A stretch of DNA of 64,000 nt from Hypericum androsaemum. Lineage: Eukaryota; Streptophyta; Magnoliopsida; Malpighiales; Hypericaceae. The stretch covers positions 13,293,176 through 13,357,175 of the forward strand of contig OZ023187.1 of NCBI GenBank assembly GCA_963995505.1. The letters are read 5' to 3'. Positions 10,109 to 61,100 of this stretch are shown in pieces; position 1 is the stretch's first letter; each line of letters opens with the position of its first letter. Under the pieces are notes generated by a model. That model made no database searches and had not been told where the DNA came from. It saw only the letters and a program-made list of their open reading frames with translations. The position numbers were made by a program, and so were the translations under genes.

Positions 10109-10170
10109 GTCTCTTCGGGGGCATCTGATAAAATTGAACGATACAGAGAAGATTAGCATGGCCTCTGTGC
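10109..10170 (+). pseudogene. 5' fragment of U6 snRNA (retropseudogene)
   Basis: It matches the first 60 or so nt of U6 (GTCTCTTCGGGGGCATC ... AAGATTAGCATGG) with substitutions. It is then cut and followed by TTTAAAAAAAA. It is flanked by 15-bp direct repeats AAGTCTCTAGTAGTA (10093-10107) and AAGTCTCTAGTAATA (10181-10195). The truncation, A-tail and target duplication indicate LINE-type retroposition. There is no upstream element or TATA at Pol III spacing, so it is not a functional U6 gene. Confidence 0.8.
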
Positions 10171-10587
10171 ATTTAAAAAAAAGTCTCTAGTAATACACGA
10201 GGGGACATGTTGACCAGGAAGAGGAGAAGCCATGAACACTTGGTAATCTTTATCTTTATCACGCCCCCGTAAGCTTCTCTGTAAACAACCGTTAACTTGA
10301 AACGTAAATCATAAAAACAGGCATGCGGAAGTGGCTTGGTAAAAACATCAGCAATCTGATCTTTCCCTGAAATATAGCAAACACGAAGTCTATCGACAGC
10401 AACACGCTCCTGAAACAAAGTAAAAGTCAATTTCTATATATTTGGACCGACGATGAAACACTGGATTTGCTACCAAGTAGGTAGCCCCTAAGTTATCACA
10501 CCACATCATTGGGGACTGAGAACATGGAAAACCAATTTCCTGGAGAAGAGACTGCACCCATATGATTTCGGAGGCCACCGCCGCTAA

Positions 10588-16221: not shown

Positions 16222-16749
16222 GGGAAAATTACACTTCACCTACTTGTAGTTTGTCCGATGTCGCGTTCAGGCCGTGTAGTTTCAATTTGGCAAATCAGTC
16301 CCTGTACTTTAAAATCTTTTGTAGCATACGGTCCACTCCGGATGACTGGACTAAAAATGCCACGTGGTGTGTAGAAAAATTACAAAATAGTCTCCATTAT
16401 TATTTATATTATTTCAAAAACTCCCACCTTCGACAACAACCATCCTCCTTCCGCTCCTCCGCCAGGGAGCGCCCTTCCCGACCCCTCTCCTCCTCCTCGA
16501 CATCGGGATGGTGAGGAGGGAGGTCCTCGACGTGTACCTTAGGGTTGTTGTCGAAGGTGGGGTTTTTGAAATAATATAAATGATAATCAGGACTATTTTG
16601 TAATTTTCCCATACCACGTGGCACTTTTAGTCCAGTCATTCGGAGTGGATCGTATGCTGCAAAAGATTTTAAAGCACAGAGACTGATTTACCAAATTGAA
16701 ACCACACGACCTGAACGCAAAATCGGGCAAACTACGGATAGGTAAAGTG
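16222..16749. mobile_element. foldback MITE with long inverted arms
   Basis: About 220-bp inverted arms (16222-16441 and about 16541-16749) flank a 100-bp GC-rich core. Arm text such as GGCAAATCAGTCCCTG, GCCACGTGG and CCTTCGACAACAACC is found inverted on the other side. It is flanked by 9-bp repeats TAGTATTTA (16213-16221 and 16750-16758), the size typical of Mutator-type insertion. No transposase is present. Confidence 0.75.
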
Positions 16750-16758
16750 TAGTATTTA

Positions 16759-24103: not shown

Positions 24104-24123
24104 GTCCCTTCGGGGACATCTGA

Positions 24124-24155
<32 letters not shown>

Positions 24156-24205
24156 GGCCCCTGCGCAAGGATGACACGCACAAATCGAGAAATGGTCCAA
24201 ATTTT
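24104..24205 (+). ncRNA. U6: U6 spliceosomal snRNA
   Basis: A complete U6: GTCCCTTCGGGGACATC at the 5' end, the conserved ACAGAGA box (within GATACAGAGAAGATTAGC), CCTGCGCAAGGATGACACGC for U4 pairing, and the 3' end GGTCCAAATTTT. It is almost identical to the plant consensus as I recall it, differing at T for C in the GACATCTGATAA stretch. With an intact upstream element, TATA and terminator it should be transcribed by Pol III. It forms the catalytic core of the spliceosome with U2 and U5. Confidence 0.95.
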
Positions 24206-24208
24206 TTT
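24202..24208 (+). terminator. Pol III terminator
   Basis: A run of seven T at the U6 3' end. Confidence 0.85.
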
Positions 24209-27619: not shown

Positions 27620-29735
27620 AATTCCACTAATCAGGAATCTCAAGCGCACAATGAAGGATAAAACATAATATTGTTTCCCAAATTAAGAAGTAAATGAAAG
27701 GCACGGCGACAGGAACCAAAGGGACGACGACGATTTCCAAAGACAGAGGACCCGTAAGCCTGACTAACCCGTCCCCGCTTTCGACAAGCCACTCGGAATC
27801 TTCGACCAATGATTGTTCCTAGATATCTTGTGGCCGACGGCGAACATGGTATCGAGAGACGAGTGGAAAGGAGGAAGAAGGGGTGCACCGTATATTTTGG
27901 TAGGAAGAATTTTCTTGGAATGTGTAGATTTTGAGATTAAAAGATTGAACTCTCTTACTTATTATTGAGTAATTACATAAGTATTTATATATTCTAAGGA
28001 ATTAGTGAGCATGATTACAATTAATGCACATCAAGTATAATAACTAATCTAGTCGTTACATATGGAGAGAAGTGCGCTAACCGTTGGAGAGGATGAGAGA
28101 GACGCGAGAAATCCAAAACTAACCGTTATAGGCCGTTACAAGGCTAATGTGTAATAATTAATCTAGTCGTTACATATGAAGCGCGCTATCCGTTAGAGAG
28201 GAGGAGAGAGACGCGGGAAATTCCAAACTAGTTGTTATAGGCCGCTACAATGCTGAACTATTTCCAAGTCAGGAAGAGTGCAAGAATACCAACTCAAACT
28301 CGTATGAAATGATGATGATCAATCGTAGGGATCATCATCACCTTGATGATCTATATTCTTAACGCTCTCCCTCAAGTTGGGGAGTAGATATCGCAAATCT
28401 CTAATTTACCGTTGCCGAGGAGCCATTTGGAAACTTCGAACAATGATTGTTTCTAGATATCTGGTGGCGGACGGCGAACATGGTGTTGTGAGACGAGGGG
28501 AAAGGAGGAAGAAGGGTTGTACCATACATTTTGGAATGAAGAATTTTCTGGGAATGTGTAGAATTTGAGATTAAAAGATTGAACTCTCTTACTTATTATT
28601 GAGTAATTACATGAGTATATATATACTAAGGAATTATTGTGCATGATTACAATTAATACACATTAGTACAATAACTAATCTTGTCATTACATATGGAGAG
28701 AAGCGTGCTATCCGTTGGAGAGGAGGAGAGAGAGGCGAAAAATCCAGAACTAGCCGTTATAGGCCGTTACAAGGCTAATGTGTAATAAATAATCTAGTCG
28801 TTACTTATGAAGCGCGCTATCCGTTGCAGAGGAAGAGAGAGACGCGGGAAATTTGAAACTAGCTGTTATAGGCCGTTACAAGGTTGAATCATTTCCAAGT
28901 CAGGAAGAGTGCAAGAATACCAACTCAAACTTGTATGAGATGATGATGATCAATCGTAGGCATCATCATCACCTTGATGATCCATATTCTTAACGCTCTC
29001 CCTCAAGTTAGGGAATAGATATCGCAAATCCCCAATTTATCGTAGTCGGCTAGCCATTTAGAATCTTCGACCAATGATTGTTCCTAGATATCTGGTGGCG
29101 GATGACAAACATGGTGTCGAGAGACGAGGGGAGAGGAGGAAGAAGGGTTCTTAACATGGTATACTGTACAAAAATCATTGTACACATTCCCAGAAAGCTA
29201 ATCTAGTCGTTACATAAATTGAGAAATAGTGAGGTATATGAGTTTACCAACAGTTCTTTTAAATTGAGAAATGTCTAACAATTTCGCCTTCAATGTTAGA
29301 GAGTTTAAGGTTAAGCTCAATTGAAGTTTTAAATGGTGTAATACCATGTAGATTTTGAGATTAAAAGATTGAACTCTGTTACTTGTTATTGACTATGTAC
29401 AGATGAATGAGGAATGACTAAGAAATTAGTGTACAAGATTACAGCTAATACACATTAAGTGCAATAACTAATCTAGTCGTTATAAATGGAGAGAATCGCG
29501 CAGCCGTTATAGGCCGTTACAAGACTAATGTATAATAACTAATCAAGTCGTTGCAAATGGAGGGAAGCGCGCTATCCGTTAGAGAGGAGGAGAGAAACGC
29601 GGGAAATTCGAAACTAGTTGTTATAGACCGTTACAAAGCTGAACGATTTCCAAGTCAGGAAGAGTGCAAGAATACCAACCGTAACTCGTATGAGATGGTG
29701 ATAATCAACCGTACGGATCATCATCACATTGCTGT
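27620..29735 (-). repeat. tandem array of three copia LTRs with short internal pieces
   Basis: Minus-strand LTRs lie at 27923-28364, 28557-28995 and 29347 to about 29735. They start [CT]GTTAAGAATAT and end CTCAAAATCTACA. Each full unit begins after a polypurine-like CAACTTGAGGGAGAG. Anchors GATTGTTCCTAGATATC recur at 27811, 28445 and 29076, a period of about 632 bp. Next to the third LTR a primer-site-like TGGTATTACACC is seen (about 29346). Most internal sequence is missing, which points to unequal recombination between LTRs. Confidence 0.7.
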
Positions 29736-30006: not shown

Positions 30007-31128
30007 TCAACAGCCCATGACAGCACAGTTGTAGATAAACACACCGCCACGTTCCTTCGCACCGAGAACCTTCCAGTCCAAGGATCCATTGCTAACCCCC
30101 GACTTCGGACACCACGAGCTGAGCACAATAGCTTCCCCTTCCAGGCCCCGTTGCCCGCCCACAACCAGAAGCTGATTTCCGCAGGCCTTGAAAGCCAAGC
30201 CCCAACCATTTGATGTATCAGCCCTTATCGGAAGCCTTCCCAGTACATCCCAAGTATTCTTCGCCTTGTCATACTTCTTCACCATGTTAGTGGAGTGTTC
30301 AACTGCATATAATTCATTCTCCACAACAGCAACAAGCGGAGGAGCCTCGGATGCCCTGTTGACATTAGGATACATCCCCTCAATCTTCCTCCATGCTCTC
30401 GTCTCAAGGTCGAACTCCTCCCCACAAGTCAAGGAAGCATTGGGTCCCGACATCCCACCAATTACATAGAATTTTCCATCCATGAAAAATCCAGAGCACA
30501 TTTTACGCGGTGAATGCATGTCTGGTAACATTTCCCATTTACCAGTTCTCGAGTCGTACAACTCTGCTGACTGCAAAATGTTCCCCATTTGATCAGTCCC
30601 ACCAGCAACAACTGCCACAGAACCAAAGCTGCCCGACCCAAACAAGCAACGAGGATGGTGCATTTCCTCGCACCTGATCCAGCCCCGACGGATCATACTG
30701 TATTTCCAAATTGCAAAACCAAACATCTCACGCCCAAAAACCAGCAATTCACTATCAACAGCCAAAGACTCCTTATCAGCGTGGCTGAAGCATTCGTCAC
30801 AAGGTATTTTAGGCAAAGTCATCCACCTCTTCCTCATGGGATCAAACGCCTCCCATCCCCGAGGATCACTCACCAAAAACACCCAATGCTCTACCAACCC
30901 CAACTTCTTCCTCATCCCATACAAAACCCCACTGCCCATTAACCTATGAAAGCTCTTATTAATACATGACATCGAAGCAAAATCCGACCTATTTGCCCGA
31001 GCAAGGCAAATCAACGAAACATCGTCTATGAGACCGGGGAGGAGAGAATCACTTGGTCCTATCTTCAATCGACCATCATTCACTCCCACTCGCGGTATCA
31101 CTCCAGTCTGCTTCTCAATGAAGACCAT
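30007..31128 (-). CDS. F-box/kelch-repeat protein (SKIP11/At1g74510-like)
   Basis: A single coding exon of 373 residues starts at MVFIEKQTG (31128). The longer frame runs back into a poly-T tract plus TAG (31136-31150), which is the acceptor of a 5'UTR intron. F-box region at about 30-75: [20 protein letters not shown] ... [10 protein letters not shown]. It is followed by LGLVEHWVF, a signature of this kelch subfamily. Kelch repeats cover about 115-345, with [16 protein letters not shown] and LLVVGGQRG as blade strands. Such proteins are substrate receptors of SCF ubiquitin ligases, the F-box binding a Skp1/ASK protein and the kelch propeller the target. The frame is intact. Its promoter and 5'UTR recur many times downstream in this window. 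Confidence 0.9.
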
Positions 31129-31135
31129 TTCCAAG

Positions 31136-31693
31136 CTAAAAAAAAAAAAAACTCTGTACCAAACCAATCCGCTATACCCCAAAACCAAAAGAATGAATTA
31201 TACCAAACAAACCCCCTCTCCTTTATAATCTCAAATAAATTTACAACAACAAAATCGGTTTATGGGCCGATAAAGAGACTAAAGATCCCTCCTTTATTGT
31301 TCCACCATCGACGCCATCGTTATTCCCTGAAGAAAACCATCAAAAAAAAGAAGATAAGAGATTAAAACCAATCAATAATCAAAGGCATGCAACCCAATTC
31401 GGATCCCAATCCGTTCCTCCAACTGGGTACTGGCCGATTCTATTGCAAAGCAAGTAAAGGATTCGAGGAGCAAAAAACACAAGTGGGTTGGTTCTACCTG
31501 GAGAGAGCTGGTCGGAGGAAGATCGCCGGAATTATGGGTCCCCGGAGGAGATGGAGCCCCTCGAACATGTCGCGGGAGGTCGGCGAAGAGCGAGAGAGAG
31601 GACCTTGGGTCGTCTACTCTTATTAGTTGGCGTGGCGTTGTATTTAGATTTAGAAGCGTGGAAAATTAAGATAAATGGGGACTCTATTTATAG
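31136..31693 (-). promoter_or_regulatory. F-box gene core promoter, 5'UTR exon 1 and 5'UTR intron
   Basis: On the minus strand: a TATA box CTATAAATAG at 31693-31684, then TTTATCTTAATTTTCCACGC, a CT-rich leader, and CCCATAATTCCGGCGATC. The donor CTCCAG|GTAGAAC ends exon 1 at 31498. The intron (31497-31136) ends in a T run and TAG, 7 nt before ATG. The exon 1 start (about 31655) is inferred from TATA spacing. This segment is the source sequence, or a sister, of the amplified repeat family. Confidence 0.65.
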
Positions 31694-31699
31694 GGGCTT

Positions 31700-32640
31700 G
31701 TTAATGTAACGCTTTTGTAACGCATTTGACCAAATTTAATTTTTGTAACGCTTTTAGTTTTTTTTAGTGCAAGCAAGGAAGCTTAGTTTGTAATGATTCG
31801 AGAATTTTTATTCGAACGAAAATAACATATTGACTAGTTAATATAAATACCGTTGATTTAGCATTTAATAGATTTTGAATTTATTGAAACTAATGAATTT
31901 TATAATGACAGTCTAATTATAACTCCAACCAATTTGACCATACTATGAGAACATTAATGAATATAATCACATGCTTAGTGACACCAAAAGAAGTTATATC
32001 TATTGGAGAAAATAATAGCTAGTAATTCTTTTGTTTAGGTTTTAACTAAATATGGATTCACGTGGTTATATGAGTATCATTTTTTTTTATTTGAAATTCT
32101 CGTGGTTAGGTTTTAACTAAATATGGAATTCACATGGTTATGTGTGTATCGTTTTTTTCCTATTTGGAATTATTGTGATTATGTTTTAACTAAATATGGA
32201 ATTCATATTTCATATGCAGATGCACTTGGTTCTGCAGATGTTCTTGGTTCTGCAGATGTCCCGGGAGGCCGGCAGTTTGGTGATCGGTGGTACTTCTAAA
32301 TTAGCCGTTAAACTAGCCGTATACGGACTTAGTGAGTGTTTAGTGCATTAATTAGCAACCGGTATACAAGATGAGCTCATTAGCTCGTGTAATTAAGCTG
32401 TTAAACTAGTCGTCAGAAGAATTACAGGAAAATTATAGCAACTGGTATGCAAGATGAGCAGATTAGCTCTTGTAATTAAGCTGTTAAACTAGTCGTTAGA
32501 AGAATTACTGCAATTTTCCACCTGTCAAAGATAACTTATTAACGACTAATTACAATAGTCTACGAATCAACTGAGTGTTGAACAACAATAAGTGATCTTC
32601 GACAGGTGGACGATTTGTTGAACACGTCGCGGGAGGCTGA
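31700..32640. repeat. arm of the F-box-promoter foldback repeat family
   Basis: Immediately upstream of the F-box promoter begins AT-rich non-coding repeat DNA (ACATATTGACTAGTTAATATAAAT, then AGGTTTTAACTAAATATGG). It is found in both orientations up to 64 kb, e.g. around 35.7, 36.4, 37.9, 39.8, 42.8 and in every unit of the array at 57.4-64 kb. Two CCGGGAGGCCGG/CGCGGGAGGCTG scraps (32265, 32628) are further pieces of the 5'UTR exon. No protein is encoded. Confidence 0.65.
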
Positions 32641-33430: not shown

Positions 33431-34859
33431 CACAAGTAAAATGTGACCAGTGGTAACGGTAGTCTTATAGCAAAGATGGCATTTGATGCGCACAAGTTGG
33501 TGTTCTTTTCTAAGCAAAAAAATAATAATGGAAAGCAATAAAGAACTTTCACGGTGTTGTTGTTGGTATCAGTCGCTCCTCCTCACCGTTTATTTGACTT
33601 GGCTCTTCAAATTAAATGTCGAGAAACGTTACGGAGAACAACTTACAATTGCCAATTGAACACTTACTCGAATGGTACAATTTAGAATTGACTGTTCATG
33701 ATTTAATTTCGGACAATTGCTTATAATAAGACAGCTAACAGTTGGATACATGTCCACATCAACAAGCCCATACTTTACCGGAATCAATCTGCATGTTAAC
33801 CCCTAAAAAAAAGGATTTTGCTTTTGTTTACAAGTACAATGTGTACGTGCACAAGTTTTTTTGTTTTGTTTTGAGAAACAGCACAAGTTTAATTTTTCAA
33901 TGTAGAGATCGGCACACGTACGGTAGAAGAGAACAATGTAAGCCAAATCACAACTTTGGTATAGGTCTCTCTCATATTTTTAGGAATAACCAATAGATTG
34001 GTAGTCAACATTGTTGGAATGACTATCAATTCGGTTGAACTAATCAGTTTAGATCTAACTGACCATTTTGTTTCGAAAAAAATATCTATAAAATTTAGTT
34101 AGATATAAAATTAGATTAGATATAAAATTATTTGACATTTTATTATTAAATATAATTCATAGTACAATTCTTTAAAAAATCTATTGACTGACTGCCCGTC
34201 GAATTGAGATCAAAAGAGCAGAGTTGATCGGGACTCGAGAATAGAGTGGTCCGTCTCATTTTTTAAAACAGTGGAAATAACAAATGGCTTAAGACCTTTC
34301 GTTCTTAATAAAAGACGAGATCAGAACAAGCAAACGGACCACAAGGACTTTTTAATGGTTTATTTGTATAAAAGATTGTAAATTAAACTCTTTCTCCTTC
34401 TTCAGTTATGAAAAAATGACACACACTTAATAACGTGAATTTATATTTAATTAAAATCTAACCACAATAATTACTAGCTATTACTTTCTCCAGTAGATAA
34501 AAAAATTTCTGATATGACTAAGCATGTCACATGAAATGTGGCTATACTCATTGATGTCTTTAGAGTATCAGTCAAATTGGTTGGAGTTATAATTGGATTG
34601 TCATTATAAATTTTTTTAGTTTCAACGAATTCAAAATCTATTAAATGTGTTATTAACTATTAAATGCTAAGTAAACCAACATTTCTTTTAAATTTGAATA
34701 AAACTAAGTTTATGCGCATTAAAAAAATGCTTAAGCATTACAAAAATTATAAACGTACAAAACAATTAAGCCTTTATAAATGGAGTCTCATTTATCTTAT
34801 TTTTCACATTTGCTTTTAGTACCGCGCAAATGTTGTATTACAAACAACTGTGAAAAAAA
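33431..34859. other. AT-rich repeat DNA without genes
   Basis: From about 34400 it is again an arm of the foldback family (CTAACCACAATAATTACTAGC, GGTTGGAGTTATAATTGG). The earlier part shows no recognisable feature. Confidence 0.4.
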
Positions 34860-35570
34860 GATAAATGGGACTCTCTCTCTCTCTCTCTCTCTCTATATTT
34901 AAAGGCATGCTTGTTTTGTACCGCTGTCCTAGAAGCAAGTGTGAAAAGACAAATGAGCCTCTCGCTCCCTCTCTATTTAAAGACATGCTTGTTTTGTATA
35001 TTTTTATTTTCTGTAACGCTTGTGGTGGGGTTCGGGTATTTTGCTACTTCTGTCATTTTCTTTTTCTTTGGTAAAAATATCTGCCATTTAGTCAAAAAAT
35101 GTATTGCTTAATCGGTTTTCAAGTATTCCAAAACTTAATTTTAAGTGAGATAGGTTCTTTAAAATATTTAATATTATTATGTCAGTAATGATTCCAATTA
35201 GGTAACACATTGACTAGTTAATATAAATGATGGTTGGTACATAATAATGTTAAATTTTTTTTGGAGTTTTTTTCCATTCTTTAAAGATTCTATTTGGTTT
35301 AAAATTAAAAATTTAAATACTTAAAAATGACATAAGTGTTACTTTTTTGTGACTAAATGGCATATATTATTACCAAAGAAAAAGAAAATAGCAGAAGTAG
35401 CAAAACACCTGAACCCACCACAAGCGTTACATAAAATAAAAATGTACAAAACAAGTATGCCTTTAAATAAAGAGGGAGAAAGAGTCCCATTTACCTTTCC
35501 ACACTTGCTTCTAAGACAACGGTACAAAACAAGCATGCCTTTAAATAGAGAGAGAGTCTCATTTATATTA
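34860..35570. repeat. inverted repeat built from promoter-arm sequence
   Basis: Arms of about 230-245 bp, 34860-35105 and 35340-35570, are reverse complements with small differences. Each carries AAAGGCATGCTTGTTTTGTA twice and CTGTAACGCTTGTGGTGGG. An internal (CT)n at 34870-34894 interrupts the left arm. The arm contains TATA-region text of the F-box promoter family but no 5'UTR exon. Confidence 0.75.
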
Positions 35571-36074
35571 TTTTTTCTAATACATCATTTGCGTTGTACT
35601 AGAAGCAAATGTGGAAAATAATATAAATGAGACTCCATTTATAAAGGCTTGTTTGATTTGTACGTTTCAATTTTCGGTAATGCTTAAGCACTTTTTTAGT
35701 GCTCGAAAACTTAGTTTTATTCGAACTTAAAATAAATGTTAGTTGACTTAACATTTAATAGTTAATAACACATTTAATAGGTTTTGAATTCATTGAAACA
35801 AACAAAATTTATAATGATAGTCCAATTATAACTCCAAGAAATTTGACTGATACTCTAACGACATTAATGATTATAATCACATTTCATATGACATGCTTAG
35901 TCATAGCAGAGAAAGTTTTATCTACTAGAGAAAGTAATATATAGTAATTGTTGTGGTTAGGTTTTAACTAAATATGAAATTCACGTGGTTAAGTGAGTAT
36001 CATTTTTTTCCTATTTAGAGAAGAAGGTGAGGGAGTCTAATTTTAATCTTATTTACAAATAAACTCATTAAAAA

Positions 36075-36250
36075 ACAAGTGGGTTCTACTTGGAGAGAGT
36101 TGGGCAGAGGAGGATCGCTAAAATTATGGGCTCCCGGAGGAGATGGAGCCCCTCGAACATGTCGCGGGAGGCCGGCGGAGAGAGGAGAAAAGGGTCGTCT
36201 ACTCTTATTAGTTGGTGTGGCGATGTATTAGAAGAAAGTGTGAAAAATGA
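36075..36250 (-). repeat. F-box promoter/5'UTR exon copy
   Basis: The minus strand reads like 31470-31650: ACGCC-type leader, CCTCCCGCGACATGTTCGAG, GGGCTCCATCTCCTCCGG, CCCATAATT, ending CTCCAAGTAGAAC. The splice donor is changed from AG|GT to AA|GT. It is flanked by AT-rich family arms on both sides. Confidence 0.75.
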
Positions 36251-37567: not shown

Positions 37568-37653
37568 AAACACAAGTGGGTTCTACCTTGAGAGAACTAT
37601 CGTAGGAAGATTGTTGGAGGAGATAGAACCCCTCAAACTTGTCGCGGTTGGCC

Positions 37654-37724
<71 letters not shown>

Positions 37725-38379: not shown

Positions 38380-38546
38380 CATCACCAGGATCCATTGGCT
38401 GAATTGGGATAAAATTTCCAAAAGTAAAAGCATAGGTAGCCTAGGTTTTAGGAGCATGGAAGCATTCAACCATGCTCTGTTCGCTAAAAAATTTGTGTCG
38501 TTAGAAGAATGTAGCTCTGTTCAACCATACTATGTTCGCTAAACAA
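38380..38546 (+). mobile_element. LINE fragment
   Basis: A decayed frame reads like GFRSMEAFNHALFAK, the post-RT motif of plant L1-type LINEs. The nucleotide sequence is close to 47090-47195, so both belong to one LINE family. It ends where the inverted repeat begins. Confidence 0.65.
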
Positions 38547-39245
38547 TGAGGGATCTTTAGTCTCTTTAACGGCCCCAAAATTGATTGGTGTAGTTCCATG
38601 GACTTTGTTGTTGTAATTTTTATTTGAGATTATACTGGGAGGGAAAATAAACGAGGGGGTTTGTGTTTTTTTTGTTAAAGTTATAAGGTTTCTTTAAAGG
38701 GTTAATTTGTTTGGTTAGTAAAGGGAGTGAATAAGACTTAAGTGGGTTTGAAGTTCATTCTTTTGGTTGAGGGGTATTGTAGATTGGGTTCATACAAAGT
38801 TTTGTTGTGTTTTAGCTGGATATGGTGTTCATGGAGAAGCAGAGGGAACTGAGTTGTCTGAAGTGATTGTGCAGGTGGGAGTGAATGATGGTCATTTGCT
38901 CCCAACCTGCACAATCACTCAAGATAACTCAGTTCCCCTATGATTCTCCATGAACACCATATCCAGCAAAAACATAACAAAAATATGCACAAACCCATTC
39001 TATTATACCCCTCAACCAAAAGAATGAACTTTGATTATACCAAATCCACTTAAGTCTTATTCACTCCCTTCACTAACCAAACAAATCAACCCTTCAAAGA
39101 AACCTTATAACCTGGACAAGAAAAAAAAACAAACCCCCTCCTTTATTTTCCCTCCGAATATAATCTCAAATAACAATTACAACAACAAAATCTATGGAAC
39201 AACACCAATTGGTTTCAGGGCCTATAAGGAGACTAAAGATACCTC
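38547..39245. repeat. inverted duplication of the F-box gene 5' end (hairpin)
   Basis: Left arm 38547-38881 and right arm 38899-39245 are reverse complements over about 335-347 bp, with a 17-nt loop (38882-38898). The right arm is collinear with 31040-31290 of the F-box locus. Reading away from the loop it covers the first codons including ATGGTGTTCATGGAGAA, the 3' end of the 5'UTR intron, and intron text ending AGGAGACTAAAGAT. The left arm keeps an acceptor-like TTTTAG|CTGGAT before the ATG; reading frames are broken in both arms. A transcript across it would fold into a long near-perfect hairpin. Homology to the F-box locus continues rightward to 39665. Confidence 0.85.
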
Positions 39246-39429
39246 ATTTTTATTCCATCATTCCCACCATCGTTATTCGCTGAAGAAAACCACCAAAAAA
39301 GAAGATAAAAGACAAAACCAATCAACAATCAATAGCTAGAAACAAAGAAACAATCGTGTTCAAACAACATGCAAGTAACCCAGCTTGAATCCAACCCAAT
39401 CCGGATCCTTGATAACCAATCCCTTCCTC

Positions 39430-39665
39430 CAACTGGGTACTTGCCGATTCTATTGCAAAGCAAGAAAGTAGCAAGTGAAAGATTTGAAGAGAAAGAAAAA
39501 AAATAAGTGGGTTCTACCTGGAGAGAGCTGGGTGAGGAGGATCACGAGAATTATGAGGCCCCAGAGGAGATGGAGCCCCTAGAACATGTCGCAGGAGGTC
39601 GGCGAAGAGAGAGAGGAGAAAGGGTTATCTACTCTTATTAATTGGTGTTGCGCTGTAATAGAAGC
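39430..39665 (-). repeat. F-box promoter/5'UTR exon copy with intact donor
   Basis: It continues the F-box-like right arm. CCAACTGGGTACTTGCCGAT and AGCAAGTGAAAGATTTG match intron text. CTCTCCAG|GTAGAACC preserves the donor, followed by the exon 1 leader to CTCTTATTAATTGG. Together with 38899-39245 this is the most complete second copy of the F-box 5' region, but there is no gene body. Confidence 0.75.
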
Positions 39666-40430
39666 AAGTGTACAAAATGAGAAAATGGGACATTTATATA
39701 AAGGCTTACTTGGTTTGTGCATTTTTATTTCCGTAACACTTAAGCATTTTTTTTTGGTTTAATTCGTTATCATGATAAAGTTTTTTCAACTAATATTAAA
39801 ATTTTTATGAAAACAATGATTTGAACTTGAGACTAAAATAACATATTGACTAGTTAATGTAAATGTTGGTTGGTTTAACATTTAAGAAGTTTTGAAATCA
39901 TAGAATACTAACAAAATTTATAATGACACTTGAATTATAACTCCAACAACCTTGAACAATTCTTTAAGGATATTAATGAGTATAATCATGTTTTATATGA
40001 CATATTGAGTCATACTAGAGAAAGTTATATCTACCGAAAAAAATTATTATTATTGTTATTAATTACTTACCAAAAAAGGAATAACTAATAATTGATGTGG
40101 TTAGGTTTTAACTAAATATGGAATGTCGTGGTTAAGTAAGTATTATTTTTTCCTATTTGGAGCAGAAGGGGAAGGAGTCAAATTTCCAACCTTATCTACA
40201 AATAGACTCATTAAAAAGATAGAACAAAGAGTTATGTACACTTAACCATGACAGTTCCATATTTAGTTAAAATCCAACCACAAAAAAATACTAGTTATTC
40301 CTTTTTTTGTTAAGTAATTAATAGCTGTTATTTTCTCCTGATAGATATAACTTTTTCTGGCCCCCGGATTAAGTAATTATGATGTATGTTTTTGAGCTAA
40401 GCAGACACGTCACAATTTTACATTAAGTTC
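39666..40430. repeat. foldback-family arm
   Basis: AT-rich non-coding sequence of the dispersed family (ACATATTGACTAGTTAATGT, GTGGTTAGGTTTTAACTAAA). No gene. Confidence 0.5.
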
Positions 40431-42420: not shown

Positions 42421-43572
42421 TTGCATTATCTACTGTCGCCAATTCGTAAATTTTTAATTAAATAGAAGGGCAAAGATAAAAAAAGTGGGGGAGTGTGTGT
42501 GTGAACACACGCGCCAACCACTCCCCCCGCCTTTATGATGCACGTGTTAGCCGACCCTCTCTCGTGCTCTTTTTTTGCTTTTTTTTTCCATTCAAGTTAC
42601 AATTAATTACAAGTTTCAACTGGGATCTCCCCCTTGCCCCTTTGGTCTAGACGGGCCAGAAAAGCCCATTCCGGACCCAATGCAAGCCCCTTTTCCTGGT
42701 ATGACTAAGCATGTCACGTGAAGAGTAATTATTCTCATTAATGTCCTTAAAGAATTAGTTATGGTTGCTGGAGTTATAATTAGAGTGTCATTATAAATTT
42801 TGTTCGTATTGAATTAATTCAAAACCTCTTAAATGTTAAACCAACCAACATTTATATAAACTAGTCAATATGTTATTTTAGTCTCAAGTTCGAATAATTA
42901 CTTTCATACAATATTTAATATTTGTTCAAAAAATCACTTATTGTTGTTAAATAATTAGTTGAGTTAATGGACCTTTGTAAATAGCTGTTAATATATTAGT
43001 TTGTCACATGAAGCGTGATTATACTCATTAATGTCCTTGGAGAATTTGTCAAGTTGGATGGAGTTAGAAGTCATCTATGGTTTCTTCACCACTCATGCAC
43101 ATAATAAGGTAGCCATCAACCTTAAAACAATCAAACACATAAGACAATACCGAGTCGCATTAACACATAATGGGGACTCATGCACATCAACACATAATGG
43201 GGACTTCAGAGTTCTGCCTCCTGTATGGCAGAATCCCGCGAGACACAGATTAAATACCTTCTCCATTCCCGCATAACGTAGATTGTCTAAGCGCAATGTG
43301 GGCCCAACAGATGTAAAGATGTACCAATTGCATGGGGCACAAATCATTGCTACACTCATCCAAAACACACATGTGATCGACGGGCCACAGAAGCATATGA
43401 TAAATTACACACACATTAGGCTAGTAGTTAGAAGAATTCAACTGATTGTCCACCTATCGACTATTTAACTCAACTAACTGTTGAACAACAATAAGGGATA
43501 TTCGATAGGTGGACAATCAGCTGAATTATTCGAACGACTAGTTTAATGGCTTAATTACACTAGCTAATGAAA
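42421..43572. other. repeat DNA without genes
   Basis: Contains a small hairpin near 42486-42530 (GGGGGAGTG and CACTCCCCC arms). Foldback-family arm sequence lies at 42700-43060, and an unassigned less AT-rich block at 43071-43425. Confidence 0.4.
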
Positions 43573-43800
43573 GCTCACTACCCATCAACCTATGGAAAGC
43601 TCTTATCTATGCATGACATCGAAGCAAAAATTGATCTACTTACCCAAGGAGAGAGATGGCCGTAGGAGGATCGCTGGAATTATGGGTCCTAGAGGAGATT
43701 GAGCCCCTCGAATATGTCGTGGGATGCCGGCGAACAAAGAGAATGAGAAAAATGGGTCGTCTACTTTTATTAGCTTGTGTGGCGTTGTATTAGAAGCAAG
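43573..43800 (-). pseudogene. F-box CDS fragment fused to the 5'UTR exon copy
   Basis: 43575-43650 matches F-box coding positions 30931-31005 (CCTATGGAAAGCTCTTAT, CATGACATCGAAGCAAAA). It is joined directly at about 43650 to the 5'UTR exon copy (CCGTAGGAGGATCGCTGG, AATTATGGGTCCT) that runs to 43800. The intron, start codon and first codons are skipped. The sense strand is minus, as in the parent. Confidence 0.75.
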
Positions 43801-46796: not shown

Positions 46797-48250
46797 CTTG
46801 GTATGAGCTTTATGTCTGAGGATGTTAAGTATCTTGGGCTCCCTTCATTTTGGGGGAGGTCTAAATCAAATATTGTCAACTTCATTTATAATGCCATGTG
46901 GTTTATAACTCAATCTTGGAAACAAAAATTGCTATTGACATCAGGAAGAGAAACGATGATTAAATATGTTCTTATTTCCTACCAAATTACACTATACAAC
47001 ATGCTCAATTTCCTAAGTTGATATGTAAGAAACTTGATGGATTAATGGTAAGATATTGGTGGTCAGGTTATCTAGAAACTGGCAGGATCTATTGGCTGAC
47101 ATAGGATAAAATTTTCAAAACTAAAAGTATATGTGGCCTTTGTTTTAGGAGCAAGGAAGTATTCAACCATGCTCTGTTTGTTAAACAGGTGTTGAAGATG
47201 TTAACCAACCAGGAAGCCATGTGCTCTCAATTGCTTAAAAGTATTTAGTTCCCTTCTATGTCTCTTTTACATGCAAGAAGAGGATGTAATCCCTCTTGGA
47301 CCTAGACAAGTCTACTGAAAGGACATGAAGTTATCAGACCTGAGTTGTTGTGACGTGTAACAGATAGTTCAAGCATCAAGATTTTGGAGCATCGTTGGCT
47401 TAAAGAGTTGCCAAACTTTTCAATCCAACTCCTAAAACCACAACCTTATCCTTGGTGGCTTATCTGATAGATCCAAACAACAACCAATTGCAAATTGAGG
47501 TGCTCAATAGTTTTTCCTCCTTGGGGGAGGTCACTAAGATAACCAAACTTACACCAAGACGTGGACTGGGCAGGGAAAAACTCATCTGGGTCCATGTTTG
47601 GTAAGGCAAGTATACTGTTAAATCTTGTTTCCTTTTTTTGCAGCATAACTTTGTGAATGTTGATGATGCACTGAAAGTTCTTTGGAATAGACTATTGAGA
47701 ATGAAAACAAGCCCAAAAACCATGGCATTTTTGTGGAAAGATGTCAACGATGCACTTCCAATAGCTCAAAATCTCTGTAAAAGAAATTTTTTGGATGTCC
47801 TAGAGTACAGAATCTATCAACAGTTGTTGAAGGTGTAGAACATGTTATATTTCTTTGCCCTCATGCAAGATCAACATGGTTTGCATCTTCATAGCATATA
47901 TTACCTCTATAGAAGGATCTCCGGATATGAAAGTGTGGGTGCAAGCTTTAATTCTTTCTCTGGAAGGTGCATATTGCAATGATCTCAACCAACAATTTGC
48001 TTTCGTCTGCTAGAAAATATGGAGTACACGCAATGAGTATCTGTTTATAGGCAAAAATCTAGATCCTCGTCCAACATGGAATGTTGCTTGCAGAAGATGG
48101 ACGAAATTTGACAGCATAAAAAGCTTTGTTCCTACAAGTTTAATTACAGTAGGCAATTTTTGCGTCCTCCAGGATCTGATTCTGCCAAAGTAAATGATGA
48201 TGCCTTGTGGTTACAATGATCAAGAGAAGTATACTTTTTTTTAATGATGA
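46797..48250 (+). mobile_element. LINE (L1/RIL-type) pol 3' remnant
   Basis: RT-end and zinc-binding blocks in broken frames: VKYLGLPSFWGRSKSNIVNF, WKQKLLLTSGRETMIK, EVFNHALFVKQ, then MKTSPKTMAFLWKDVNDALP and LFLCPHA-like text. A possible RNase H-like tail follows to about 48400. Many stops; dead copy. Confidence 0.85.
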
Positions 48251-49886: not shown

Positions 49887-50579
49887 TGTCACGATCCGAA
49901 CTGTGGTCGGTGACCGGCGCTAGACTTCAACTCATGTTATTCACAAAATAAATCTAGCCAGCCTCTAACGTATTCAAATTTATAATCAAAAGTATTTAAA
50001 CATAAAATTAAACCTAATGATCTTTTGTTTCATATTCCCAGCTTACAAAATATAAGCCAAGCTTTTACTTTTTAATACATACTCCCAAGATCAAAACAAA
50101 TCCTGTGACTACGGAGCTTCTAGATCAATGAGAAAAATACAAACTGGAGACCTCCAGACCAATCCCGGAGAATAAAGCAGACTTATACGATCAGAGTAGA
50201 TCTCCGAACCAATACAACTCGTACTCGAGTTCCTGCAAAACTGGTGAGAGGGGGGAATGAGTGTTTTGGAACACTCAGTAAACAAATAAGATATGCATCG
50301 TAATTTATTTAGCTACTCAATGCACAACATACCTAAAATATGCATATAACTAACATGGCAAATAAATTATGCGGAAATGTACAGTGTTCAAAAGTCATAC
50401 TTACCAGATGATCAAATATAGCATATAATCATAAAGTCGCAGAAACATGAGCAAACTACGCAATTTGACACATGACACATAATTCCAATATCCTATAGCA
50501 GAACTGACAAATATTCGGCAAGATCTAGATAGTGTCACTCTAACCCCGACACGAGGATACCATATCTCACAGGCACCAT

Positions 50580-50760
50580 CATCAACCAACCTCTTCGGCC
50601 AAATAGTTCTACCCGCCGAAAGGCAACCATATCATATCAGACCAACCTCATCGGCCAAATAGTTCTGCCCGCCGTAGGCAATCATATCATATCAGACCAA
50701 CCTCATCGGCCAAATAGTTCTGCCCGCCGTAGGCAACCATATCATATAGCGAAGCTATCT
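50580..50760. repeat. 60-bp tandem repeats in the LARD LTR
   Basis: Three copies of ACCAACCTC[AT]TCGGCCAAAT...GCCGTAGGCAA...CATATCATAT in this LTR, two in the other (56625-56740). Confidence 0.85.
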
Positions 50761-52130
50761 ATATTATATAGTTATTCGTAGCACACAAATTCATAGGCTC
50801 CAAACGAATCAAATAGGTCCAATGAACAAACCTACATCTCCAGTGCCCACTCGAGGCCAAATTAAGCAAACACTTATAAATCATAATGTCACGTCATAAT
50901 GCTCATATGAAAAATGCACAATATGCACTAACAATACCATATTCAAATCATAACAAATAAATAGAGTGCGCCAAAGAAAGCACGAGTCACATATTATTTG
51001 TTTACCAATTTTATATGGCCGCCATCCGAATGAAATTTGATTCCAATACACAAATCTCTTCTCTTCAAATTCTATTCTGCCGAGTTCTTTATTTGTAGAG
51101 TCTCGTCTAAATCTTCTCAATTATATTTCAAATCCAAAGTTTTGTTTCCGTTCAATTTCAACGTCTCCTCTTCGGTTCTTTCCTTTTTCTCATCTTGTAT
51201 TTTCTCTTTGCCTTTAATTTCTACCACACTTTTACTTGTGTTTTTCTTTTATAATCGTTCGGTGGAAACTATCCATGCTTAACTCTTGCCACCTTTTAAT
51301 TTATAAGTATGAGTTTTGGTTGAAATTTTCAAGCTGCCACGTTTTCCACTTTTTCTTTCTTCTTGCCACGTTTTCTTTTTAACCTTTTTACTCTTCTTTC
51401 TTTTACCTTATGATTATCTTGATCTTTTCTTTTATAATTTCCAGTAGTGTCGCTAGAACTTTCAAGCACCTTTAAGTAAAGTTAACAATCTCATTTTAAT
51501 GAGTTGACCCATATCTTCTTTTAATTTCAAACTTATCCTATTTTATTTGGTTATTCTTACCTATCAGAAGTGTTAAAATCTTACTGAATTCATCTTAGAT
51601 TTTATTTTTATCCTTATCTGTTGCTTGACGGGTAAACTGACCAACTTATTTTTCTAGTTTAAATTTCTTTATTTTTCTTTTAGCATTATCCATTGGTTAC
51701 AATTTCATTTGTAATTACGTGAAGTACAACCTAACCTCAACCTCTCTTATTTTCTTTCAAGGGCATTGTGTTTTAGTGGCATTTCCATGAGTTGCCACGT
51801 TTCTAATTTGTTCTCTTTTTTTATTTTTTTTCAGCTTATCCTCTTTTATTTCATTATTTCTTGTCTACTAAAAGAATTTACCTTTCTACTATTAAAATGC
51901 TTACTCGTGTAAAAATTTAACAATCGATCAAGCATTTTATGTACATCGGGTTAACGAATTCACCATAGTAATTAATTGGTCCAGTTATATCAAATCTTAT
52001 TTCTAGAATATCTCGATGACTAATTTGTATTAATATTTTTCAAAGGTAGTGATATATTCTTATCGTACTAAATGACCTAGCATACTTGATTAAATCTAAT
52101 TAACTTCTAATAATATGGTTGGGTATTACA

Positions 52131-55100
52131 TTCTCCTCTCCTTATAAAAATTCGGTTCCCGAATTTACTTACACAAACTTTTCTTACATATCATTCAAAT
52201 AAACAGATACGTCAATTATATCTCATCTTATATCTCCGAGGGGTCCAAATTTCAGAATGGTTTTTCTATTCTACTTATAGATCTGAAGTTTTCCCTTCTA
52301 AAATTTTTAAATTTTCTTATGCAAAATTATTTTTGGCACTTTCAATATGCCAAATTTTATTAGTGGCTTCAAACAAGAGGAGGGTCATTTAAGTAGGACT
52401 ACTACCTACACGTGACAATGTCATAATTATTGTGGCAAAAGCCAACGTGCCATTAGCTCAATTGGCTTCAAATTCTCAAATGGGTCAATGTATCTAAGAT
52501 TGAGTCATTGTCTTTTCCACATGTGAGACTTTGAGCTTCTCAGATTAAACTTTATATCATGTTATCTTCCAATCAAATAAAACACAATTCACTTGGATTA
52601 TTTTAAAAATTTTATGAATGACTTTAGTTTACCCATTCATCTCCCAAACTATTCCAAACTAACTTATACCCCTTTTTGGAGAAAAGTTTAGTCCAATTAT
52701 ATTTCATTATTTCGGCACAACCACTTAAATTCTAAAGAATTCTCTAACACCAAGTAACTTATTAGATGACCCATTCTTCTGACTTTCATTTATCTTCATA
52801 TTTTCTCATTTTAACTACAATTATCACCAAAAGAAAATGATACTAGTGTCTTAACCAGTCAATTTCTAACCACATGTCATACTGTCAAATCTTTCACTCA
52901 TTATCCCTTTCTTAGATAGTACAATGAGCAACATGTGTTTTTCCACATTAATTTATAGTTCCTTTCATCTCTTATCCTTTTAAATATCCTACTCCTTCCA
53001 TTTATTCTCCGAACTACATAAAATCAAGGTAAAATTCATTTGATCGAATTTCACTTACTTATTTATAATATGATTGTTCTTCTAGTTCTGCCAATTATTC
53101 AGTCAATTTTTTTTATATCTAAATTTCTGATCCAATACTATAACCTATCCGTAGATGGTACAATGCACTTGTATCTCAATCATACAAAATGATTTTCTAG
53201 CCTCTAATTCTCCAGACAAATTCCTTTAAAACAGAATGTCAATAAGTTATAAGCTTATGGGTCTCAATTTCATATCATATGCATTTTAACTCCTGTGTTA
53301 TTCTAACTTAATATTTTCTGAAAATACCAGAAAACTAATCACAACTTTTATCGTCTCTTCATTCCTTTTTTTTGGGTCATACATTCGATAGTTCTACTCA
53401 ACCCTTATTCGGGTCATCTCTGGACCATATCTTCCATAATCTTACTAACATTTATTTAATCAGCCCAAAAATGTCAAAATCTTACAAACATTTGATATAT
53501 TAATTCTCAACGGTTTATTTTTCACTATGACACCACTGAAAATCTTTTGGTTCTTAAAGTTGTATGTGTCTATTGGGTTCTTGAATAACTAAACCTCTAA
53601 ACCTTTCCAACAACAAACCGTATCATTTTACCATCTCTGAAACTCAAAATTTTTCATAACCTTCCAATACTCCAAATCCACAAACACTTCATCACACCTA
53701 CTTATGTCTTAACAATCTTTTTCTTTATCACCTATACTTTCACAAGGAAAACTTATCATATAACTTGTAGTTCTATGAAGTTCACAATGTCAGTTGTAAT
53801 ATCTCCATGTGCTCTTCTAAATTATCCATATACACCAAATATTTCCATAAAATTATTAACTTATCTCTCATATGCTTGAGCACTCGAATTATAACTCTTA
53901 TCATAAATTTCATCTTGTGAGTTGACCAAATATCATATCGCTACATCTTAATGCATACACTAAGTTCCAAAAGTTATGTTGACTACAACATCTTCCATTG
54001 GTACCATGACGTTGTGTCATTCTTATAATCAAATAAAAATACCACAAAGTATTTTTGAACCTATAAAAATCCTTATTCATCAAGTTTGCTCAACTCTTTT
54101 CCTCGAATAAAGTCATACCTAATAGTGGTACAAATGTTAACACTTTTCTCATTAAAGAGTTATCATATTACTCGATCTTTCAAATACAAACTAGTTCATC
54201 ATCCACCAAACTTCTAAAAAAATTTCTTTCCTAACTTAAGTCTTATTACCCTTCCAGATGTCCATAATCTACCTTTTCCACTTATTTAGTATACATTGTA
54301 TAAGTTGCACCAGACTTCATACCAAAACTCTCGGATCTTAGCAAATATCTATCACATCCTCAAATATCCATCTGTCATAAACTTAAATCTTAATAAGGCA
54401 ATAGCATACCTAGATGATTTATCATTGCTTGTGCCAAAGATTTCTCATTGATTCTCTAATTTTCAACATAGTTATCTTGGTATTTCATTGACATTGTGTA
54501 CGCTGAAGGATTTACTTAATGGAGTAATATATAAAAATATTTCCATCAAATGACATACTAGTTTTCATCTCCTTGGTTTTTTTTCCTGAAGTTTGAACCA
54601 AAATTTATTGTAGCTTGTCTTAATTCTAATATATAAAAATTATGACTATTAAGTCAATCATATATTTTCACTTCACATCTCAAAATTTTGCACAATTCAG
54701 TATAGGTTCCAAAATCTACATAACATGTGTACTCCTATTCTTATATTTCTTTATCCACTTCTTTTAAGAGAAATTTTCCTTCCCGCTCTCTTATTGAGCT
54801 TGCTCAACACCATCTCAATATTGTGGTACTTATTGTAGCTAAAAGCTAAATGATTTGTAGATTATCAAAGTTTTATCTCATGACTCTACCTCACATTCTT
54901 CAAGACACAGATTATATGCATCAGATCAGTATCTGATTATATGCATCAGATCATTATCTGATTACATAAAGAAGCTATAAACAAATCTTGATGGATTTCC
55001 TTTAGCCTTCATATTTTTTCCCACGAATCAATAGGTAAACTTTGTAATTTGGTCAAAACTATTTACCTTGTCTATAACCGTTGAGCAAATTATCTTATCA

Positions 55101-55927
55101 AAAGTCCATCAGAATATATCTTTTCCAAAATCCATAACCATGATTCAAATCAAGATTCATTCTCAATCTTAACTTACTAATAGTATTAAAAGCAATAACT
55201 TAATTATAATTTAATTCATATATCACAATCCCATAATTCCATTCATAATAAATCTCACACCACTTTCTCAATATATATTTTTATATTCCAGAGCACACTT
55301 AAGAATTAGTTTCTAATATATTCTTCTTCCACATAATGTTGTTCATAACTTCTTCTTTTCAAACATATTTAAACTCAAAAAAACATTCTCAATGCATAGA
55401 TAAACAAACATAGAAGAGTTCACAAAGTCATAACTCAAATATTCGGTGAGACTCTAACCAATGGCCCAAAATATGCATAGGAAGAAATTCAATATATAAG
55501 GGTGTTTAGATGATTTGGACAAAGTGGTGATCAGTCACTTCATCAAAATCTCACCCAAGGAATGATTTTCATATATATAAATATATATACTCAAATGAGC
55601 TCTTCAAAGGAATAAATATACAAACAGGACCCGAGTTCTCACCAAAATATAGAGTAAATGCCTCGTCATATCAACAATGTATCACATAAGTTCCTCACAT
55701 AAGAATCTCAAACATAAACATCTCAAACAATGTTTCAATTCATCACACCAACATGTTCAAACAGAAACAAATCTTCCTTGACACCGAAAAGATTAACGCA
55801 TGAGCAAATGACAAAGATAGAAGGGACACAAAGATATGGAAAAATCCTATGCTCCGTAGCACAACTTATGATACTCGACACCCAATAATTCAAACAAGGC
55901 TCTAACCTAAAGCTCTGATACCAAGTC
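52131..55927 (-). other. LARD internal domain, non-coding
   Basis: 3.8 kb, AT-rich and T-biased on the plus strand, between the purine tract and the primer site. No gag, protease, RT or integrase motif on either strand. The composition bias without frames suggests an RNA-only function (packaging, priming) or an eroded gene region. Confidence 0.7.
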
Positions 55928-57242
55928 TGTCACGACCCGAACTGTGGTCGGTGACCGGCGCTAGACTTAAACTCATGTTATTCACAAAATAAATCTAGCT
56001 AGCCTCTAACGTATTTAAATTTATAATCAAAAGCATTTAAACATAAAATTAAAACCTAATGATCTTTAGTTTCATATTCCCAGTTTACAAAATATAAGCC
56101 AAGCTTTTACTTTTTAATACATACTCCCAAGATCAAAACAAATCATGTGACTACGGAGCTTCTAGATCAATGAAAAAAATACAAACTGGAGACCTCCAGA
56201 CCAGTCCGGAGAATAAAGTAGACTTATACGATCAGAGTAGATCTCCGAACTAATACAACTCGTATTCGAGTTCCTGCAAAACTGGTGAGAGGGGGGAATG
56301 GGTATTTTGGAACACTCAGTAAACAAATAAGATATGCATCGTAATTTATTTAGCTACTCAATGCACAACATACCTAAAATATGCATATAACTAACATGGC
56401 AAATAAATTATGCAGAAATGTACATTGTTCAAAAGTCATACTTACCAGATGATCAAATATAGCATATAATCACAAAGTCGCAGAAACATGAGCAAACTAC
56501 GCAATTTGACACAAGACACATAATTCCAATATCATATAGCAGAACTGACGAACATTCGGCAAGATCTAGATAGTGTCACTCTAACCCCGACACGAGGATA
56601 CCATATCTCACAGGCACCATCATCAACCAACCTCCTTGGCCAAATAGTTCTGCCCATCGGAAGGCAACCATATCATATCAGACCAACCTCATCGGCCAAA
56701 TAGTTCTGCCCGCCGTAGGCAACCATATCATATAGCGAAGCTATCTATATTATATAGTTATTCGTAGCACACAAATTCATAGGCTCCAAATGAATCAAAT
56801 AGGTCCAATGAACAAACCTACATCTCCAGTGCCCACTCGAGGCCAAATTAAGCAAACACTTATAAATCATAATGTCACGTCATAATGCTCATATGAAAAA
56901 TGCACAATATGCACTAACAATACCATATTCAAATCATAACAAATAAATAGAGTGCGCCAAAGAAAGCACGAGTCACATATTATTTGTTTACCAATTTTAT
57001 ATGGCCACCATCCGAATGAAATTTGATTCCAATACACAAATCTCTTCTCTTCAAATTCTATTCTGCCGAGTTCTTTATTTGTAGAGTCTCGTCCAAATCT
57101 TCTCAATTATATTTCAAATCCAAAGTTTGTATTAACTTGTATTAATATTTTTCAAAGGTAGTGATATATTCTTATCGTACTAAATGACCTAGCATACTTG
57201 ATTAAATCTAATTAACTTCTAATAATATGGTTGGGTATTACA

Positions 57243-57766: not shown

Positions 57767-58068
57767 TATAATTGGAGTCCCATTTATCTTATTTTCCACG
57801 CAAATAATACAGAGCCACGCCAACTAGTAAGAGTAGACGACCCCTTCTTCTCTAAGAGTAGATAACTCCTTCTTCTCTCTCTCTCTTCGCCGGCCTCCCG
57901 TGACATGTTCGAGGGACTCCATCTCCTCTGGGGACCCATAATTCTAGCGATCTTTCTACAACCAGCTCTCTGCATATAGAACCCACTGGTATTTTTTGCT
58001 CCTCGAATCTTTGAGTTGCTATATTAGAAGCAAGTGTGGAAAATAAGATAAATGAGACTTCATTTATA
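57767..58068 (+). promoter_or_regulatory. array unit A: facing promoter arms around F-box 5'UTR exon
   Basis: Left TATA-like TATAATTGG at 57767, then the exon copy in sense orientation with a partly duplicated leader (57840-57885). Right inverted TATA (ATTTATA, 58062-58068) reads back on the minus strand. The splice donor is changed (CTCTGCATATAGAAC). Confidence 0.6.
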
Positions 58069-59402: not shown

Positions 59403-59677
59403 TATAAATAGAGTCACATTTATCTTATTTTCCATGCTTCTAATATAGAGCCACGCCAATTAGTAGGAGTAGACGACCCCTTCTTCTCTCTCTCTTCGTC
59501 GGCCTCCCGTGACATGTTTGAGGGGCTCCATCTCCTTCAGGGACCCATAATTCTGGCGATCTTCCTATGACCAGCTCTCTCCATATAGAACCCACTTGTA
59601 TTTTTTTGTCCTCGAATCTTTGAGTTGCTATATTAGAAGCAAGTGTGGAAAATAAGATAAATGAGACTTCATTTATA
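59403..59677 (+). promoter_or_regulatory. array unit B: facing promoter arms around F-box 5'UTR exon
   Basis: TATAAATAG at 59403-59411 (plus) and TATAAAT at 59677-59671 (minus) face each other across the exon copy (about 59455-59625: CCTCCCGTGACATGTTTGAG, GGGACCCATAATTCTGG). The donor is replaced by CTCCATATAGAAC. Confidence 0.6.
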
Positions 59678-60823: not shown

Positions 60824-61100
60824 TATAAATGGAGTCCTATTTATCTTATTTTCCACGCTTCTTATACAGAGCCACGCCAACTAGTAAGAGTAGACGGCCC
60901 CTTCTTCTCTCTATCTTCGTCGGCCTCCCATGACATGTTCGAGGGGCTCCATCTCCTACGGGGACCCATAATTATGGTGATCTTCCTACGACTAGCTCTC
61001 TCCATATAGAACCCACTTGTATTTTCTTGCTCCTCGAATCTTTGAGTCGCTATATTAGAAGCAAGTGTGGAATATTAGATAAATGAGACTTCATTTATAA
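60824..61100 (+). promoter_or_regulatory. array unit C: facing promoter arms around F-box 5'UTR exon
   Basis: TATAAATGG at 60824-60832 (plus) and TATAAAT at 61100-61094 (minus) flank the exon copy (about 60875-61045). The donor is changed as in units A and B, so the change predates array expansion. Confidence 0.6.

Follow-up and report, generated by a model that had tools for sequence, protein, structure and literature searches.

The question raised by this locus of Hypericum androsaemum is whether a long inverted duplication of the 5' end of an F-box/kelch gene gives rise to small RNAs against its own gene family or is a silent relic of rearrangement. The window, namely the whole stretch of 64,000 nt analyzed here, corresponds to positions 13293176-13357175 of contig C8 in a genome of 385 Mb and 29 contigs; coordinates below are those of the window unless C8 is specified. 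A self-match of the window with 723 columns delimited the inverted duplication at 38542-39251, which comprises a left arm of 340 nt in the F-box gene sense (38542-38881, + strand), a loop of 17 nt (38882-38898; TGAATGATGGTCATTTG), which in the coding sense extends the frame of the left arm (...VNDGHL), and a right arm of 353 nt with its sense on the - strand (38899-39251). The 353-column alignment of the two arms contained 300 matches, 40 mismatches, and 13 gaps (88% identity without gaps). The inverted duplication and the 17-nt loop described in the initial annotation were thus recovered, albeit "near-perfect" is too strong a term for such arms. The RNA of 38542-39251 was folded into a single long stem regardless of the strand, with a minimum free energy (MFE) of -471.8 kcal/mol for the + strand and -474.3 kcal/mol for the - strand, and none of the 20 dinucleotide shuffles per strand was as stable (z of -35.4 and -40.4, respectively), in agreement with the long hairpin anticipated in the same annotation. 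The inverted repeat is real and far beyond chance. As the arms differ by 12% and by indels, and the outer flanks are unlike each other, an assembly artefact is unlikely.

An intact gene at 30007-31128 on the - strand, KFB1, encodes a protein of 373 amino acid residues. The search with this protein detected 1334 proteins at E<=0.001, and the top match among the best 120 of the 1334 was an At5g60570-type protein of Euphorbia lathyris (80%). KFB1 can be assigned to the At5g60570 type by the names and similarity of the matches; the designation as F-box is likewise based on the names of the protein matches, as the nine Pfam families listed for KFB1 included kelch motifs and no F-box model. KFB1 has a putative 5'UTR intron at 31136-31497, preceded by exon 1 from 31498, and an internal acceptor candidate at 31328-31327. 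Exon 1 also carries a short ORF (MFEGLHLLRGPIIPAIFLRPALS, 31498-31600), which, as judged by eye, splicing at 31136 would join in frame to the KFB1 ATG; this ORF is retained in some KFB copies and broken in others. A second gene, KFB2 (+ strand, 378 residues), is located approximately 1.9 kb beyond the right end of the window (window-equivalent 65941-67077; 3117-4250 in the adjacent stretch L008). KFB2 shares 329 of 373 aligned residues with KFB1 (88%), with a dN of 0.054 and a dS of 0.172, and both genes are open and look constrained.

Among three adjacent stretches searched with KFB1 by tblastn, L008 yielded KFB2 and one 3' fragment, and no match was found in L009 or L010. The genome-wide protein search at E<=1e-20 gave 10 matches, namely KFB1, KFB2, two fragments, and six others of 28-52% identity. 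A KFB 3' fragment with its frame open to the stop lies outside the window at C8:13363738-13364181 (7739-8185 in L008), and a short fragment with one stop was found by the protein search at C8:12810155. Another gene in the window, at 15 kb, encodes a LOG2-like RING protein (47% to Linum perenne and 48% to Jatropha curcas among the best 120 of 1223 matches). No near-identical protein was present among the best 120 of the 1334 matches for KFB1 or the best 120 of the 1223 for the LOG2-type protein. In the matches listed, the homologues of KFB1 and the LOG2-type gene are apparently on one contig in, e.g., Euphorbia, Linum, Erythroxylum, and Ulmus (with locus numbers that differ by two in Ulmus), and apparently on separate contigs in, e.g., Castilleja and Rutidosis. 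Thus, the shared contigs in several genera make the genomic place of the KFB cluster seem old.

Both arms of the hairpin contain 5'UTR-intron-like sequence, ATG, and the first F-box/kelch codons, so that both resemble a protein-coding gene in the manner of an inverted-duplication siRNA/proto-MIRNA locus. In the left arm, the acceptor TTTTAG is intact and the ATG at 38822 is followed by a frameshift due to a 1-nt deletion. In the right arm, the acceptor AG has been changed to TG (TTTTAG to TTTTTG, at about 38968-38967), and the retained ATG is followed by an in-frame stop 13 codons on. The coding part is therefore dead in both arms, and it is broken off after about 20-26 codons in the alignments. 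The initial annotation regarded the arms as carrying the beginning of the F-box gene, with its intron, acceptor, ATG, and first codons; the homology holds for all of these, but only the left arm has an intact acceptor AG. Judged by eye in the alignments, approximately 100 nt of each arm have no counterpart in KFB1 or KFB2, and approximately 130 nt have none in KFB2. A part of this stretch matches KFB1 at both edges, which suggests deletions in the intact genes.

KFB1 had been proposed as the parent of the arms. In the four-way alignment, the left and right arms showed 81.5 and 76.7% identity to KFB2, and 74.8 and 70.0% to KFB1; in the three-way alignment without KFB2, the identity to KFB1 was 78 and 76%. 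KFB2, which lies outside the window, is thus the closer of the two genes (77-82% against 70-75%), and we reject KFB1 as the direct parent in favor of a KFB2-like copy. Ten columns of the four-way alignment unite the two arms against KFB1 and KFB2, while the alternative groupings received 0 and 1, suggesting that one copy was inverted and duplicated once. The divergence between the arms (K2P of 0.13-0.14) is slightly smaller than the dS between KFB1 and KFB2 (0.17) and larger than that of a nearby LTR pair (92.4% identity). The locus is not clearly "young" as initially annotated, since the divergence of its arms is close to that of the two genes; gene conversion between the arms could lower the apparent age.

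The right arm runs without a break into the remainder of a KFB 5' end, and 39159-40159 aligns with 31224-32093 of KFB1. On the - strand, the arm is followed by the colinear rest of the copied 5'UTR intron (39252-39517), an intact splice donor (CCAG, then GTAGAACCC, at 39518/39517), a copy of exon 1 (39518-39660, 82% to KFB1 over 39518-39635, with the 5' limit guessed) in which the short ORF is broken, and a copy of the promoter region (39661-40243) with TATATAAA at 39700-39693. A second acceptor-like sequence, TTCTTCAG at 39281-39280, is located 28 nt ahead of the stem and common to KFB1, KFB2, and the copy containing the hairpin. Judging from this colinearity, the hairpin forms the 3' end of a KFB copy that is truncated but possesses its own promoter copy. 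A leftward transcript from this promoter-bearing 5' end would enter the stem, and the foldback could escape removal by splicing, either because the acceptor is lost in the right arm or because the shared acceptor at 39280 is used. With the promoter and exon 1 retained (39518-40243), the hairpin idea appears stronger than in the initial annotation.

We tentatively propose a decaying inverted-duplication siRNA/proto-MIRNA locus, of the kind known from the origin of MIR163 and from poplar ARR17, a reading to which we give just short of an even chance. The origin and anatomy of the hairpin are well supported, and its small-RNA output is plausible. The sequence shows a KFB2-like 5' end that breaks off within its first codons and bears its final ~340 bp a second time in inverted orientation; the order of events was presumably duplication, then truncation, then inverted duplication. 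RNA polymerase II would transcribe leftward from the promoter copy, and the ~710-nt foldback would survive splicing, owing either to the loss of the right-arm acceptor or to splicing at the shared one at 39280. It would then be cut by Dicer-like enzymes into 21-24-nt siRNAs, which may act mostly on KFB2 near the start codon, weakly on KFB1, and on the hairpin locus itself via DNA methylation.

The surroundings of the hairpin can also be read in another way. The promoter unit of KFB1 (31498-32100) has at least 28 matches in the genome including itself, with 27 in C8:13.3247-13.3636 Mb and one short match on contig C13; the counts for such repeats are lower bounds. As 27 of the 28 are in a single interval of C8, the unit probably spread by local duplication rather than as a dispersed transposon. 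Nine copies of exon 1 were found in 72.7 kb, five of which are on the - strand at the left (including that of KFB1) and four on the + strand at the right (including that of KFB2). Besides the hairpin's copy, those on the - strand are found at 36091-36205 (with a promoter on its right, and sister to the hairpin's copy), 37616-37672, and 43570-43765 (joined to a 79-nt KFB coding piece), and three exon-1/promoter copies form a tandem array on the + strand between 57871 and 61004 (57871-57974, 59467-59583, and 60887-61004). A second long inverted repeat, IR-A, occupies 34348-36074 (1727 nt; MFE of about -903 kcal/mol) and adjoins the exon-1 copy at 36091; its arms are mostly KFB promoter sequence and face each other. 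The cluster may thus be a graveyard of KFB 5'-end duplications, in which the hairpin is an untranscribed by-product of rearrangement with no function. Nine exon-1 copies against only two complete KFB genes, and a second inverted repeat made of promoter sequence, are consistent with a silent relic of this sort, whereas the TATA-like sequence, donor, and exon 1 retained in the hairpin's copy are at odds with it. We regard a relic as clearly possible, somewhat short of an even chance.

Two other repeats were noted in the cluster. A probable LTR element at 49887-57128, with 1.2-kb direct terminal repeats of 92.4% identity, separates the two halves of the cluster, and a unit of approximately 630-750 bp is repeated in tandem at 28034-29734, just downstream of KFB1.

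A MITE or foldback element could in principle also yield a hairpin, and flanking duplications of 9 and 10 bp are present in two other elements of the window, located at about 16225-16756 and at 62379-63515, respectively. The repeat at 38542-39251 has no flanking duplication at its ends (the best match within 25 bases is 6 bp), its right flank is colinear gene sequence, and all 10 genome matches of the hairpin, as well as 27 of the 28 of the promoter unit, are inside one cluster. With neither target-site duplication nor dispersed copies, we reject the transposon origin as highly improbable. As for the other elements themselves, 16225-16756 is a hairpin of approximately 520 nt, almost wholly palindromic, with the 9-bp flanking repeat TAGTATTTA, and looks like a MITE or a Mutator-type element; its ends (AAAATTAC...) resemble by eye those of 62379-63515, which has terminal inverted repeats of approximately 115 bp and the 10-bp target duplication AAATTTATAA and is inserted in a KFB promoter copy. 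A further inverted repeat at 518-2840, with arms of approximately 545 bp (80% identical; CpG observed/expected of 0.38 in both arms), showed at its ends no target duplication above 4 bp.

We then consider what the stem could target. Each 21-mer of the duplex was taken as a possible small RNA and compared with the KFB pre-mRNAs under the usual plant mispair scoring for 21-mers, with a score of <=4 accepted. With the loop included, 51 sequence windows fell within this score in KFB1 (35 in the putative intron and 16 3' of the acceptor) and 74 in KFB2 (28 intronic, 40 3' of the acceptor, and 6 at the border or elsewhere). With the stem only, 40 were found in KFB1, of which 35 are in the putative intron and 5 are exonic (best score of 3.0), and 55 in KFB2, of which 21 are exonic (best score of 1.5) and mainly form a run across the start codon. 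Scores of 0.5 for KFB2 and 1.5 for exonic KFB1, the lowest obtained, depend on the loop sequence, and the corresponding 21-mers may be left undiced. Markov-resampled hairpins gave 0 or 1 sequence window in each of 30 trials, with 1 in only four of them: for KFB1, the first ten trials all gave 0 and the second ten a single 1, and for KFB2, three of the ten trials gave 1 and the others 0. In terms of computed potential, the arms are therefore sufficiently complementary to their gene of origin for targeting. As KFB2 has more and better stem matches, it is predicted to be the stronger candidate for targeting; at the mRNA level, KFB1 would be a poor candidate, unless its arm-like region becomes exonic through use of the acceptor at 31327.

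The hairpin as a query against the host genome gave the 10 matches mentioned above, all at C8 13.324-13.359 Mb and corresponding to KFB1, the hairpin, and KFB2, in a search that skipped very common words and scored only the best candidates (three, all of which were scored). As all of the matches are within the cluster, small RNAs from the hairpin would fit KFB2 best and KFB1 less well. The expectation that they match the parent gene is partly borne out: the 40 stem matches in KFB1 far exceed the 0-1 of the controls, but 35 of the 40 are in the putative intron and KFB2 fits better. Under a looser count (up to 4 mismatches, in the window outside the repeat), 171 positions were matched, and 88 of these fall within 31000-31499; since even the reversed hairpin had 61 matches, those in the rest of the window are close to the background level.

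The many potential sites in introns (35 of 51 in KFB1 and 28 of 74 in KFB2) raise an alternative mode of action, in which 24-nt siRNAs from the hairpin and IR-A would direct DNA methylation of KFB 5' introns and promoters, as proposed for poplar ARR17, instead of mRNA cleavage. IR-A, with arms matching KFB promoter sequence, and the CpG depletion of the hairpin described below agree with such a mode, and the inverted partial ARR17 copies of Populus euphratica, with mainly 24-nt reads (PMC9636151), offer a precedent. The 5' regions of the two genes are nonetheless not CpG-depleted: the CpG observed/expected ratio is 1.23 in the KFB1 promoter, about 0.8 in the KFB1 intron, 0.98 upstream of KFB2, and 0.66 in its 5' noncoding region, against 0.72 for the window. 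There is thus no sign of long-term methylation in these regions, and we consider this alternative unlikely.

To return to the decaying siRNA/proto-MIRNA locus, the stem bears no mark of constraint in the two properties examined. The longest paired run between the arms is 27, against a mean of 27.0 in 2000 permutations (the fraction at or above the observed value was 0.46), and wobble-compatible changes numbered 10 for a + transcript and 12 for a - transcript. From the random spread of mismatches and the absence of wobble bias, no constraint on pairing is seen. By the same token, the single drift-resistant miRNA/miRNA* duplex of a bona fide MIRNA was not found, nor was a known MIRNA family: the Rfam scan of the window at gathering scores gave only two U6 snRNA matches, at 10109-10195 (51.8 bits) and 24104-24206 (114 bits). 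Pairing with no detected constraint fits a relic as well. As no constraint was found, the hairpin is about as likely to be a silent relic as a fading locus, and as the arms are now drifting, any regulation by the hairpin is probably modest or fading.

The hairpin is poor in CpG, with 3 observed against 16.8 expected from the mean ratio of the window (observed/expected of 0.13), which places it within the lowest 0.3% of 710-bp segments (9 of 3165, in two places). Taken arm by arm, the loss corresponds to Poisson P of 0.09 and 0.03, for arms that share ancestry and are thus not independent. The corresponding stretch of KFB1 has five CpG; the left arm retains one of these, and the right arm retains none. 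The ratio is 0.61 in IR-A, 0.95 in the inverted repeat at 16.2 kb, and 0.38 in that at 0.5-2.8 kb. Methylation without function is common. The depletion gives a weak hint of past methylation of the hairpin, and such decay is also what a silenced, methylated relic would show. The only other 710-bp segments of the window as CpG-poor as the hairpin lie in 46801-47730, within which 47083-47185 matches the left flank of the hairpin (38386-38488) at 85%.

The two inverted repeats invite a broader, if improbable, proposal. IR-A (34.3-36.1 kb, promoter sequence) and the hairpin (intron and start codon) are each directly downstream of their own KFB promoter copy, and the interval between KFB1 and KFB2 might regulate itself, with siRNAs from both repeats damping the two flanking genes transcriptionally and post-transcriptionally. 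If the hairpin is expressed, it would be a middle-aged case of the birth of a small-RNA gene from a gene family through promoter/5'-end duplication, truncation, inverted duplication, and drift; the donors, the hairpin, and the failed copies, all in one cluster of ~40 kb, would then make it possible to test for how long a hairpin remains able to silence its donors. If it is silent, such hairpins would persist as relics, and anatomy alone would not make a small-RNA locus.

At ~710 nt, the foldback exceeds the typical length of plant MIRNA precursors. A literature search by titles and the beginnings of abstracts, covering 20 of 30 and 12 of 54 papers and with subscription papers mostly outside its scope, found no hairpin of an At5g60570-type gene, and for At5g60570 itself only a transcriptome study of date palm. 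The KFB hairpin differs from genes of this type in encoding no F-box protein, owing to the frameshift in the left arm and the stop in the right arm. The initial annotation invoked inverted duplication as an established origin of small-RNA loci, and this stands: PMC1790633 presents evidence of such an origin for 16 MIRNA loci of Arabidopsis, reports that the formation of MIR163 included duplication of the source promoter, and regards drift and death as perhaps the commonest fate of such loci. In rice and Arabidopsis, most miRNA genes related to transposons or pseudogenes are linked to inverted duplication by PMC3237417; for the hairpin, the pseudogene route fits. As in MIR163 and young MIRNA loci, the foldback arms resemble a protein-coding family beyond any small-RNA site; in contrast to those loci, no preserved miRNA/miRNA* segment was seen in the hairpin. 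The soybean CHS cluster (I locus) is likewise an inverted cluster of gene copies giving siRNAs against family members, but it spans 27 kb of CHS genes (PMC3804491), whereas the KFB foldback covers 0.7 kb of a 5' end. In poplar, inverted partial copies of ARR17 with homology to exon 1 are thought to give siRNAs against the intact gene, and these copies are in a male-specific Y region, with mapped small RNAs and a target on another chromosome (PMC9636151). The KFB hairpin and its possible targets share, by contrast, a single cluster of ~40 kb. Further parallels are found in the flower-color loci of Antirrhinum and Mimulus.
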